This document shows positions 10,075-35,800 of a stretch of DNA of 48,777 bases, piece after piece (position 1 is the first letter of the stretch; every line of letters starts with the position of its first letter). The notes beneath the pieces are model-generated. The model saw only the letters and a program-made list of their open reading frames with translations, was not told where the DNA came from and ran no database searches. This stretch comes from Candidatus Gastranaerophilales bacterium (GTDB lineage: Bacteria > Cyanobacteriota > Vampirovibrionia > Gastranaerophilales > Gastranaerophilaceae). A program made the position numbers and the translations under genes. The stretch covers positions 1 through 48,777 of the forward strand of contig CALVAT010000005.1 of NCBI GenBank assembly GCA_944325565.1, in the 5' to 3' direction.

Positions 10075-10082
10075 AAATAAAA

Positions 10083-10437
10083 AGGAGCAGCTCATAAGCC
10101 GGGTTCTGTTTTTAGATAATCATCTGTCTGGGGTTGCAGTTGCCTGCAAGCTCAAGCGGTTTGTCAAAAGACGGCGGGTCACCTTAACCTTTTTGTCAAC
10201 CTTGCACCCGACCGGGGTTTACCTGGCCAAGACCTCTCAGCCTTGCCGGTGAGCTCTTACCTCACCGTTGCACCATCGCCTGTTTTCACTGACAGTATCA
10301 GGAATCATCGGCAGTCTGCATTTCTGTGGCACTGTCCTCACGGTCGCCCGCACCTGACGTTATCAGGCGGTCTGCCCTAGGGTGCCCGGACTTTCCTCAC
10401 GGAATGTTTCATCCGCGCGATTATCCGGCTGCTCCTG
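10083..10437 (-). ncRNA. rnpB: RNase P RNA (bacterial type A)
   Basis: Read on the minus strand this is a full RNase P RNA. P1 is formed by GGAGCAGC near 10436-10428 and GCTGCTCC near 10091-10084. Conserved region I GAGGAAAGTCCGGGC lies at 10398-10384, GGTAAACCCC in the middle, and the 3' conserved ACAGAACCCGGCTTAT at 10109-10094. Length about 355 nt fits. P1 is followed by a T-rich tract (TTTTTATTTTTATTC) that overlaps the stop end of the CDF-CorC gene and probably serves as terminator. It is the catalytic subunit of the tRNA 5'-maturation enzyme. End positions are good to a few bases. Confidence 0.96.
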
Positions 10438-32661: not shown

Positions 32662-35340
32662 TTATTTACATCCTAATGTACCTTCTTCTTCCTTGCTGTG
32701 TTTGAACTCAATAACAGCCTGAGCAGCGGCAAGTCTTGCCTGCGGAACTCTGAAAGGAGAGCAGGATACATAGTTCAAGCCGATTCTGTGGCAGAATTTA
32801 ACGGAAGCCGGGTCGCCGCCGTGTTCGCCGCAGATACCTCTTTTGAGGTGCGGTTTGACTGACAATGCTTTATCAAGAGCCAGTTTCATTAACTGTCCGA
32901 CACCTTCTTGATCTAATGTCTGGAACGGGTTAGCAGGAAGGATTTTGTTATCTACATATTTCTGTAAGAATTTGCCTTCCGCATCGTCTCTTGAATAACC
33001 AAAGGTCATCTGTGTAAGGTCGTTTGTACCGAATGAGAAGAACTCTGCGTATTCTGCAATCTGATCAGCAGTTAATGCAGCACGCGGAATTTCTATCATG
33101 GTACCAATCATATAATCTACACCGACACCTTTTTCAGCCATAACTTCTTTTGCAACACGTTCACAAACTGCTTTTGCTTCTTTAAGTTCGTTTACGTGAC
33201 CTACAAGAGGAATCATAACTTCAGGTTTTACATCCAGCCCTTCTTTTTTCAGGTCGCAAGCTGCGTAGAAAATAGCTTTAACCTGCATTTCGTTAATTTC
33301 AGGGAATGTAAGACCAAGACGGCAGCCTCTCAAGCCCATCATCGGGTTGGATTCCGACATGTTTTCTACAAGGTGAAGCATTTCTTCATCTTTTTTGTAA
33401 TCCTGATTCAATGCTTTTTTAGTAGCAACTGTCGCAATCAATTCTTCTTTAGAAGGTAAGAACTCGTGCAGCGGCGGGTCTAAAAGACGAATAGTCATAG
33501 GTTTGTCGCCGAGAGCCTTGAACATTTCGTAGAAGTCTTTATACTGCATAGGAAGCAAGTGTTCAAGAGCTTCTTTTCTTTGTTCGGTATTTTCAGCGAT
33601 AATCATTTTTTGAACCCAAGGTAGTCTTTCAGGATCCATAAACATGTGTTCGGTTCTGCAAAGACCTACACCTTCTGCACCCATTTCCAATGCTTTTGCA
33701 ACATCAGCAGGGGTATCTGCGTTAGCACGTACGCTCAAGAGTTTTACATCGTTAACCCATTCAAAGAGTTTTTTGAAATTGTCATCCAGCGTAGGCGGAA
33801 CAAGATGTACTGCACCTTCGAATACTTCACCGGTACCGCCGTCTAACGAGATAATATCGTTTTCGTGGTAAACTTTACCGCTTCCGTCTGTTAAAGTACC
33901 GTTTTTAAGGTCGATTTTCAAATCTTCACAGCCTGCAACGCAGGGTTTGCCCATACCTTTTGCAACTACTGCTGCGTGAGAAGTCATACCGCCTCTTAAA
34001 GTAAGAACACCTTGAGAAGCAATCATACCGTGGATATCATCAGGGCAGGTTTCCAAACGTACAAGAATAACTTTTTCGCCTGCTTTGCCTCTTTCTGCTG
34101 CTTCTTCTGTATCGAATACGATTTTACCTACGGCAGCACCCGGAGAAGCCGCAAGTCCCTGAGCAATTTTGTGAGCTTCTTTTTTAGCGGCAGGGTCAAA
34201 GTCTGGCAAAAGAACCTGATACAACTGGTTCGGGTCAACAAGTTCGATTGCTCTTTCCTTATCGATGATGCCTTCTTCAGCCATTTCAACAGCAATTCTT
34301 ACAGAAGCTTTTGCAGTTCTTTTACCGTTTCTTGTTTGCAAGATATAGAGTTTGCCTCTTTCAATTGTAAATTCCATATCCTGAACATCTCTGTAGCCTT
34401 CTTCCAATTTTTTGGCAATATCAACATACTGTTTGTATTGTTCAGGCATTTCTTTTTCAAGGTCTGCAATCGGGTGAGGTGTTCTGATACCCGCTACAAC
34501 GTCTTCACCCTGAGCATTTGTCAGGTATTCTCCGTAGAATTTGTTTTCACCTGTAGACGGGTTTCTTGTGAAGGATACACCTGTTGCACAGTCATCACCC
34601 ATGTTGCCAAATACCATTGTTTGGACGTTTACGGCAGTACCGTAGTTGTGGTCAATTTTGTAGTGGTTTCTGTATGCAACCGCACGGGGGATGTTCCATG
34701 AACGGAATACCGCTTCAATAGCTTCTTCCAATTGTACATAAGGATCCTGCGGAAATTCTTTGCCTGTTTCGGCTTTAATCAAAGCTTTGTAAGGTTCGAT
34801 TAAAGATTTCCAATCTTCTGCGGTCAGGTCTACGTCTTGTTTGTAGCCTTTTTCAGCTTTAATTTTATCTATGTATTCTTCAAACTTCATTCTTTCAATG
34901 TCCCAAGCAACAGAGCCAAACATTGTTAAGAAACGACGGTAAGAATCATAGCAGAATCTCGGGTTGTTGGTGAGTTTAATCATACCTTCAACCGTCTGGT
35001 CGTTCATACCGAGATTAAGGATTGTTTCCATCATACCTGGCATGGAGAGTCTTGCGCCGGAACGTACAGAAACGAGCAGCGGGTTTTCGGGGTCGCCGAA
35101 TTTTTTGCCTGCTTTTTCTTCAACTTTTCTCAAAGCTGCTTTTACTTCATCCATAACGCCTGCAGGCATTCTATTGCCGTGGTTTATATAATCCATACAA
35201 GTTTCTGTAGTAATTGTTAACCCCGGAGGAACTGGAAGCCCCAGATTAGTCATTTCAGCAAGGTTTGCACCTTTACCGCCCAGAAGATCACGCATCTGTG
35301 CGTTACCCTCTTCAAATAACCATACTCGTTTTGCTGTCAT
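32662..35340 (-). CDS. ppdK: Pyruvate, phosphate dikinase
   Basis: 892 residues, full length. The ATP-grasp N-terminal domain begins with KRVWLFEEGNAQMRDLLGGK and GANLAEMTNLGLPVPPGLTI. The swivelling His domain has LTLRGGMTSHAAVVAKGMGK with the phospho-His. The PEP/pyruvate barrel has GVGLCRTEHMF, SFGTNDLTQMTFGYSRDD and the catalytic Cys in GICGEHGGDP. It interconverts PEP + AMP + PPi and pyruvate + ATP + Pi. With pyk it allows PPi-linked glycolysis or gluconeogenesis at this node. AAGGAG precedes the ATG; a good promoter is at 35366-35393. Confidence 0.97.
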   Translation of the reverse strand: MTAKRVWLFEEGNAQMRDLLGGKGANLAEMTNLGLPVPPGLTITTETCMDYINHGNRMPAGVMDEVKAALRKVEEKAGKKFGDPENPLLVSVRSGARLSMPGMMETILNLGMNDQTVEGMIKLTNNPRFCYDSYRRFLTMFGSVAWDIERMKFEEYIDKIKAEKGYKQDVDLTAEDWKSLIEPYKALIKAETGKEFPQDPYVQLEEAIEAVFRSWNIPRAVAYRNHYKIDHNYGTAVNVQTMVFGNMGDDCATGVSFTRNPSTGENKFYGEYLTNAQGEDVVAGIRTPHPIADLEKEMPEQYKQYVDIAKKLEEGYRDVQDMEFTIERGKLYILQTRNGKRTAKASVRIAVEMAEEGIIDKERAIELVDPNQLYQVLLPDFDPAAKKEAHKIAQGLAASPGAAVGKIVFDTEEAAERGKAGEKVILVRLETCPDDIHGMIASQGVLTLRGGMTSHAAVVAKGMGKPCVAGCEDLKIDLKNGTLTDGSGKVYHENDIISLDGGTGEVFEGAVHLVPPTLDDNFKKLFEWVNDVKLLSVRANADTPADVAKALEMGAEGVGLCRTEHMFMDPERLPWVQKMIIAENTEQRKEALEHLLPMQYKDFYEMFKALGDKPMTIRLLDPPLHEFLPSKEELIATVATKKALNQDYKKDEEMLHLVENMSESNPMMGLRGCRLGLTFPEINEMQVKAIFYAACDLKKEGLDVKPEVMIPLVGHVNELKEAKAVCERVAKEVMAEKGVGVDYMIGTMIEIPRAALTADQIAEYAEFFSFGTNDLTQMTFGYSRDDAEGKFLQKYVDNKILPANPFQTLDQEGVGQLMKLALDKALSVKPHLKRGICGEHGGDPASVKFCHRIGLNYVSCSPFRVPQARLAAAQAVIEFKHSKEEEGTLGCK

Positions 35341-35365
35341 AATTGTGTCTCCTTTTAATAAACTG

Positions 35366-35393
35366 AGTATATCGTGTTTTTTATATATGTCAT
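35366..35393 (-). promoter_or_regulatory. Promoter of ppdK
   Basis: Minus strand ATGACA (35393-35388), 16-base spacer, TATACT (35371-35366); each hexamer matches consensus at 5 of 6. It sits about 30 bases before the ppdK start. Confidence 0.65.
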
Positions 35394-35524
35394 GAAACCA
35401 TTATTATTACACAGTTCTAGACTAGCATATTTTTTAAGAATACACAAACGATTTTTGCGAAGAAATAGTAACAACAGACAAATGAATGAAGCCTTCTCTG
35501 AAAAACAAATGAAAGATTTTATTG

Positions 35525-35607
35525 TACAATTTCAATAGGGTAAGCTCCTGTTTGCCACCCCCGGCACGGACTTGTTAAGAGAATGAAAACGGAAGGGTGG
35601 TGATGAA
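35525..35607 (+). promoter_or_regulatory. Promoter-like box and SD-sequestering leader of the small peptide gene
   Basis: TACAAT at 35525-35530 is a -10 candidate (the -35 is poor). The leader carries GCCACCC (35554-35560), complementary to GGGTGGT (35595-35601), which is the ribosome-binding region of the 24-residue ORF. The two can pair over six Watson-Crick pairs plus a wobble and would hide the site. Confidence 0.5.
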
Positions 35608-35682
35608 ATGCAATTTAGCGTAACTGAAAAAGCGCTATTTCTTATCTTTTTGATAATAATAGCGCTCGCTTTTGCAAAATAG
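35608..35682 (+). CDS. 24-residue hydrophobic peptide, candidate type I toxin
   Basis: ORF of 25 codons opening MQFSVTEKALFLIFLIIIAL, ending AFAK and TAG. One transmembrane helix with a charged patch (TEK) before it and a terminal Lys, the composition of Fst/TxpA/holin-like type I toxins. GGGTGGTG precedes the ATG. The hairpin AGCGCTATT/AATAGCGCT (35631-35639, 35658-35666) lies inside the ORF. A terminator-like stem follows (35681-35732), and an opposing promoter sits just beyond. Not a recognised named family; the toxin role is inferred from gene layout. Confidence 0.55.
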   Translation: MQFSVTEKALFLIFLIIIALAFAK

Positions 35683-35734
35683 GGAGTTAAGAAGAGCTTT
35701 AAGAGAATAGCGCCTCTTAAGGCTCTTTCCCTAT
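35626..35734 (-). ncRNA. Candidate antisense RNA (antitoxin) overlapping the small peptide gene
   Basis: Predicted from the promoter at 35741-35768. A start near 35734 would give a roughly 110-nt RNA that first copies the 3' stem-loop of the peptide mRNA (arms AGGGA, AAGAGC and TAAGAG against their complements, 35681-35732). It then runs antisense through the 3' half of the ORF to the hairpin AGCGCTATT/AATAGCGCT followed by TTTTTC, a modest intrinsic terminator. The loop AATAGCGC (35706-35713) is complementary to GCGCTATT (35632-35639), so loop pairing is possible. Confidence 0.5.
35681..35732 (+). terminator. 3' stem-loop of the small peptide transcript
   Basis: Composite stem AGGGA/TCCCT, AAGAGC/GCTCTT, TAAGAG/CTCTTA with an eight-base loop, followed by ATACTTTTATT. 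It begins within the TAG stop of the peptide ORF. Confidence 0.6.
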
Positions 35735-35740
35735 ACTTTT

Positions 35741-35768
35741 ATTATAGCTCGTTTTGCCTTTTTTTCAA
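35741..35768 (-). promoter_or_regulatory. Strong minus-strand promoter for the antisense RNA
   Basis: TTGAAA (35768-35763), 16-base spacer, perfect TATAAT (35746-35741). No ORF starts downstream on this strand before ppdK, whose own promoter is 370 bases away, so a non-coding transcript is the natural product. Confidence 0.7.
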
Positions 35769-35800
35769 GGTTTTTAAACAAATATTTTTAATAAAAACTC

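Follow-up and report, generated by a model that had tools for sequence, protein, structure and literature searches.

A window of 48,777 nucleotides, a contig from a Gastranaerophilales (Melainabacteria) genome, contains at 35525-35768 a unit of about 230 bases for which a first-pass annotation had proposed a type I toxin-antitoxin module. Does this unit encode a toxic peptide held in check by an antisense RNA, or a harmless small protein, a non-coding RNA pair or a regulator of the adjacent gene? Conserved anatomy, co-variation, protein-level selection and spread of the unit were computed; from these we infer that the unit is transcribed and its translation controlled, that RNase III acts on it, that the peptide inserts into the membrane and is toxic, and what role the system may have. 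The locus is best read as a type I toxin-antitoxin system of a new family (probability about 0.85), a reading based on sequence comparison and folding models.

Anatomy of the unit and its predicted RNAs

About 160 copies of the unit were collected. The 92 copies with an intact ORF were reduced to 63 non-redundant copies for the analysis of anatomy and co-variation. The parts in the window are:

35525-35530, plus strand: candidate -10 box TACAAT of the sense promoter, 7 nt 5' of the conserved GGG
35538-35742, plus strand: predicted peptide mRNA of ~205 nt, from the 5' motif through the 3' terminator (folding)
35538-35548, plus strand: conserved 5'-end motif GGGTAAGCTCC, near-invariant in 63 aligned leaders and co-varying with the post-stop motif
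35554-35560, plus strand: anti-Shine-Dalgarno (anti-SD) GCCACCC, pairing with GGGTGGT at a probability of ~0.9-0.95 (partition function)
35594-35604, plus strand: extended Shine-Dalgarno (SD) AGGGTGGTGAT, predicted to be sequestered, containing GGGTGGT; SD core mostly paired across the 63 copies
35608-35682, plus strand: 24-aa ORF MQFSVTEKALFLIFLIIIALAFAK, whose product is a presumed membrane toxin; intact in most family copies, with in-frame selection
35631-35666, minus strand: putative intrinsic terminator hairpin of the antisense RNA within the ORF (stem plus T-tract score; covariation)
35631-35626, minus strand: T-tract of this terminator, inside the ORF
35682-35688, plus strand: post-stop motif GGGAGTT, 3' arm of a long-distance pairing, beginning in the stop codon and matching the type of the 5' motif
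about 35690-35728, plus strand: 3' stem-loop, predicted to terminate the sense RNA and to form the first stem of its antisense partner (fold; swapped-arm test)
35741-35746, minus strand: -10 box TATAAT of the antisense promoter; TATAAT or AATAAT in most of the 63 non-redundant copies
35763-35768, minus strand: -35 box TTGAAA of the antisense promoter, spacer 16 (sequence; family promoter scoring)
35624-35734, minus strand: predicted antitoxin RNA of ~110 nt, from the promoter to the ORF-internal terminator (folding of 35620-35735)

The 24-codon ORF for a hydrophobic peptide and the convergent promoter TTGAAA-16-TATAAT (35768-35741, minus strand), both named at first pass, were thus located and are conserved in the family, the promoter in its geometry. 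The pairing of the 5' end with the post-stop region and the multicopy nature of the family had been overlooked.

The predicted plus-strand RNA folds at -73.1 kcal/mol (z = -5.24) and the minus-strand RNA (35620-35735) at -41.6 kcal/mol (z = -5.94); in both cases 0 of 200 shuffled sequences were as good. In the plus-strand fold, 5' AAGCUCC pairs with the GGGAGUU that starts in the stop codon; the 3'-terminal CCC is paired with GGG, and the SD lies under the anti-SD. The motif GGGTAAGCTCC has two alternatives, a small local hairpin or the pairing with the post-stop GGGAGTT. The pairing of GCCACCC with GGGTGGT, proposed from the single sequence, reaches a probability of ~0.9 or more and recurs with compensatory changes in relatives. 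According to the predicted folds, the SD is sequestered in most copies, the unpaired probability of its core having a median of 0.06 (63 copies).

The conserved 5' end GGGTAAGCYC pairs with the post-stop region in at least seven compensatory pair sets. Among the 63 non-redundant copies, those with 5' AAGCTC or AAACTC have the post-stop partner GGGAG (22/22), and those with AAGCCC have GGG(G)C (40/41) or GGGTT (one copy). The wider set adds the pairs AAACCC-GGGTTT, GTACC-GGTAC, GTTCC-GGAAC, GACCC-GGGTC, ATGCCC-GGGCAT and GTGCC-GGGTAC; in 22 of its 23 5'/post-stop motif classes, the own partner beats swapped partners. A swapped-arm test likewise favoured the own partner for 60/63 leader arms (anti-SD against SD), 57/57 ORF halves and 52/63 arms of the 3' hairpin, the last being the shared stem-loop already described at first pass. 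Plain MAFFT plus RNAalifold on the leader alignment did not recover the leader stem, because the lengths of arms and loops vary, and found a 3-bp 5' hairpin alone; therefore, the leader model built from this alignment (R1, see below) is essentially a sequence model. Support for the leader stem comes from the swapped-arm test and single-sequence folds, whereas the ORF hairpin was judged on an ungapped ORF alignment. Thermodynamic folding models, with covariation added, predict a translationally inert primary transcript with an occluded SD, as is characteristic of type I systems.

One suggested contact was dropped. The loop of the 3' stem-loop, AATAGCGC, had been taken to complement GCGCTATT in the ORF; the closest copies read AATGGCGC, AATGACGC and AGTGAAGC, and the loop is unrelated elsewhere. 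Since its sequence is not conserved, the complementarity is probably a coincidence.

On the minus strand, the family promoter takes the form TTGAAA-16-TATAAT or TTGACA-17-AATAAT. A score of ≥ 10/12 was obtained in 57/63 copies versus 4/57 control windows, and the mean was 10.6/12 versus 8.25 in control windows farther downstream. The two boxes show a trade-off: TTGAAA combined with TATAAT in 26 copies and TTGACA with AATAAT in 13. Across the family, the sense promoter scores lower (mean 9.1/12) and varies more; in the window it is weak and lacks a good -35 box. As a separate observation, the array L215 shows a sense promoter TTGACA-17-TATTAT.

The hairpin and T-tract inside the ORF, at which the antisense RNA had been suggested to end, score as a terminator (stem plus T-tract score ≥ 8) in 62/63 copies, versus 0/63 when shuffled and 9/63 on the sense strand. 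In an ungapped alignment of 49 rows, 90.2% of the cells of this hairpin are paired, its covariation is 0.292 versus 0.120 when shuffled, and 78 versus 28 cells are doubly changed; the signal collapses on sliding. The pairing ties synonymous choices in the E-K-A-L codons to Ala/Val/Thr changes ten codons downstream. The conserved signals thus predict a gene for an antisense RNA that has a promoter and a terminator to itself and overlaps the toxin mRNA. A search for homologues and covariation across related genomes, proposed as a check at first pass, found the geometry of promoter and antisense RNA kept in >130 copies.

The peptide ORF

The pN/pS ratio is 0.48-0.56 in frame, compared with about 0.83 and 1.5-1.8 when the two alternative frames are read. 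Because the RNA stem that overlaps the ORF contributes to these values, only the difference between frames was used. The ORF is under purifying selection at the protein level. The family comprises 131 distinct peptides of 19-39 aa, 130 of which have a 13-residue hydropathy peak of ≥ 1.6, and is thus of the small hydrophobic kind (usually <60 aa) found in type I systems. At least three unrelated sequence types occur, each hydrophobic or amphipathic: an ITEKALxLILLIII type of 21-25 aa, a K/R-rich amphipathic MKRxIIK type of 24 aa, and a SKWDWLAIIII/SERELLIL type of 35-39 aa.

The ORF is intact in 92 family copies, a set that had been filtered for an intact ORF. For this reason, ORF integrity was re-tested on hits of the leader model, obtained without an ORF filter. 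The automatic ORF test was passed by 69/70 hits, among them L234, whose ORF is clearly interrupted, and L238 and L241, which carry a different ORF (see below); a fair figure is therefore ~67/70 (66-68). Some of these 70 hits, a small number, are also in the first copy set. Of the 80 loci retrieved, 15 were not parsed by the stricter pattern of this test, the element still being found there by the model. Copies with a broken ORF and retained stems, which according to the first-pass annotation would indicate a plain ncRNA, were rare. The first set has three clear examples, in which the start codon has become GTA (L009), sequence has been inserted (L064) or the frame is shifted (L127); the second set has two, with an interrupted (L234) and a truncated ORF (L248). 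In L064 and L234, foreign sequence lies right within the toxin ORF, possibly as inactivating insertions.

Two further observations concern unusual ORFs. L238 (G002:C4) and L241 (G023:C1) carry a different, less hydrophobic ORF of 32 aa ending in ELLELFLKS or EILELFLSH, which may or may not be functional; both keep the RNA frame, with 5'/post-stop pairing via GTACC/GTGCC-GGGTAC. In L011, L013, L016 and L036, an ATGTGA overlap places a stop immediately after the ATG. Here, the GTG shifted by two bases is the likely start codon, and the overlap may tune initiation.

These data bear on whether the ORF is incidental, the unit being a non-coding sense/antisense RNA pair or a selfish, MITE-like non-coding repeat. 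Its strongly conserved RNA stems, its accessory behaviour and its presence in both orientations at a single site (see below) would fit such an element. However, the near-perfect SD and the in-frame purifying selection speak for translation, as do the ~67/70 leader-model hits with an intact ORF of suitable size and the persistence of hydrophobic or amphipathic character in at least three unrelated ORF types. Neither terminal repeats nor a target duplication could be established. We consider a non-coding unit very improbable. Selection on the ORF together with the conserved promoter and antisense geometry instead supports the type I toxin-antitoxin reading, as judged from sequence.

Distribution, arrays and possible exchange

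Using blastn, the unit or parts of it were found in 15/59 relatives. The leader model R1, built on the 63 copies, found new ones and detected the unit in 111 of the 286 genomes sampled from the order; a single genome had up to 8 matches. Other families of the order were also matched by an anatomical pattern (5' motif plus spaced SD), for which the reversed control gave 0 matches. Across one genome per species (84,980 species), 104 stretches matched this pattern. The complete anatomy was present only in records of Gastranaerophilales, Melainabacteria and Cyanobacteria bin RA.bin105 or in bins apparently mis-named or lacking names; in the same search, matches in other named phyla were without it. 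Matches in Lachnospiraceae, Bacteroidetes, Spirochaetales, Symploca and others, which lacked the ORF, post-stop and promoter features, were rejected as chance, and one chance match (L066), which had passed the automatic filter, was removed from the copy set by hand. In a sample of the phylum (292 genomes, 115 genera), all matches listed belong to the window's own family. No copies outside Gastranaerophilales were found in the species-wide pattern search or among the matches listed in the phylum sample. The phage and plasmid collections searched gave no match to the unit, and viral contigs gave one pattern match (L142) without the anatomy.

Diverged copies also form tandem arrays of two to four units with a spacing of about 305-340 bp. 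L215 (157-1156) holds four copies, L236 three and L229 two; L257 is also among these arrays.

Between ppdK and the gene for an oligopeptide-transport ATPase, where the window carries its copy, the unit is present in G000, G013, G017 and G019. In G002, a 93% identical unit occupies the same site (window 35340-35800) in the opposite orientation (C8:31794-32023; L003, L261), from either an inversion or an independent insertion. At least nine congeners have matching neighbours and no unit between them. A role as leader peptide, attenuator or 3'-UTR element acting on the adjacent gene might be suggested by the proximity to ppdK and the ATPase gene in the window, or by copies directly after leuS elsewhere. 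It is hardly credible and was rejected, because neighbours differ among copies, both orientations occur at one site and the site can be empty.

At one site downstream of leuS, G019 carries a TEKAL-type ORF and G017 an MKRQIIK-type ORF (L016 versus L020). The leuS ends are 94% identical, leader and ORF 57%, and the GGGTAAGCTCC end and a 44-nt antisense promoter segment are identical. Unrelated ORFs between identical ends suggest cassette exchange. The parts common to the copies are the 5' lock, the super-SD, the post-stop arm, the antisense promoter and the ORF-internal antisense terminator. It is quite possible, albeit short of probable, that this constant regulatory RNA chassis takes up unrelated toxin ORFs by recombination at its conserved ends and spreads between intergenic sites without a transposase, the antisense terminator stem dictating part of the toxin sequence.

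Selection on the peptide shows only that the peptide matters, and would also suit a small membrane protein with a non-toxic cellular function under the control of a cis-antisense RNA. This explanation is unlikely, because a small protein with a housekeeping role would not be expected to combine a patchy accessory distribution with empty sites at one locus, multiple copies and tandem arrays, the exchange of unrelated ORFs inside one RNA frame and silencing of translation at several levels.

Relation to known systems and proposed mode of action

The peptides gave no significant match in Pfam, NCBIfam, PHROGs or PADLOC; only weak transmembrane look-alikes (e.g. TatA) appeared. Rfam had no match at the locus, sub-threshold matches there being due to chance; its only match in the window is an RNase P RNA (bacterial class A, RF00010, 248 bits) at 10079-10436, minus strand. 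AapA-type peptides, at about 22-30 aa, are similar in size to those of the new family. The Fst/par system of the Enterococcus plasmid pAD1 has convergent RNAs with a common terminator-like hairpin and a small membrane toxin, a layout also predicted here; the models of the Fst family did not match the family peptides.

As in AapA/IsoA of Helicobacter and Campylobacter, a cis-antisense RNA, here a predicted one, overlaps the toxin mRNA, several copies occur per chromosome, and a long-distance 5'-3' interaction, here predicted from covariation, would render the full-length mRNA inert (PMC6733600). The arrangement differs from that of AapA/IsoA: the antisense RNA is predicted to begin beyond the terminator of the mRNA and to span the 3' half, and the anti-SD precedes the SD. 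Family databases revealed no sequence relation to AapA/IsoA, and composition and motifs differ by eye.

In txpA/RatA, the genes converge with a 3' overlap of about 120 nt, and RNase III destroys the duplex (PMC3531473). TxpA/RatA, BsrG/SR4 and YonT/SR6 of Bacillus subtilis pair a hydrophobic toxin with an antisense RNA overlapping at the 3' ends (PMC3531473, PMC5848175), and the antisense RNA predicted here likewise overlaps the ORF and the 3' end. Their toxins, however, are longer (YonT, 58 aa; PMC5848175), and the distinctive lock of the new family is the pairing of 5' end and post-stop region. The peptides had no significant family match and the locus no Rfam match that would indicate homology to TxpA or BsrG. 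The likeness to TxpA and BsrG drawn at first pass therefore stands for the 3'-overlapping geometry and fails for the toxin family, while the mRNA lock is closer to AapA/IsoA and hok. According to these models, the unit would operate like AapA/IsoA in its mRNA lock and like TxpA/RatA in its 3' overlap, with no sequence evidence for membership of either. MsoT1/MsoA1 of Microcystis aeruginosa, the first cyanobacterial type I candidate (PMC12390103, 2025), belongs to the same phylum in a broad sense; MsoT1 differs in its 63 aa, two predicted membrane helices and design.

The following mode of action is proposed, with the order of events, the role of RNase III, activation by 3' trimming and toxicity modelled on TxpA/RatA (PMC3531473) and AapA/IsoA (PMC6733600). 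The plus strand would be weakly transcribed into the ~205-nt mRNA for the 24-aa hydrophobic peptide. As long as this mRNA is full-length, its 5' GGGTAAGCUCC end would pair with the segment that directly follows the stop codon, GGG would pair with the CCC at the 3' terminus, and the upstream anti-SD would cover the near-perfect SD; with pairing and masking combined, the message would be translationally silent. Loss of the mRNA 3' end is expected to free the message, by analogy with AapA and hok. The stronger convergent promoter would yield the ~110-nt antisense RNA, presumably more abundant, which would run across the 3' hairpin, continue through the ORF's second half and end at the ORF-internal terminator. 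By forming a duplex, it would eliminate the mRNA, probably through RNase III, as for TxpA/RatA; an RNase III gene was found in the genome. The system may serve addiction or a response to stress or phages.

Type I systems were previously known from Proteobacteria, Firmicutes and Tenericutes only (PMC12390103), and no report of one in Melainabacteria or Gastranaerophilales was found in the open-access literature. With no match in databases, Rfam or literature, the unit is regarded as a new family of a known kind. Being present in about 40% of the sampled species of this gut lineage, it would carry type I systems into a new class. For the mRNA-lock model, some 160 natural copies and their compensatory changes offer unusually rich evolutionary data, and the antisense terminator overlapping codons provides a testable case of RNA structure shaping protein sequence. 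The unrelated ORFs apparently swapped within one RNA frame may bear on the origin of new type I toxins.
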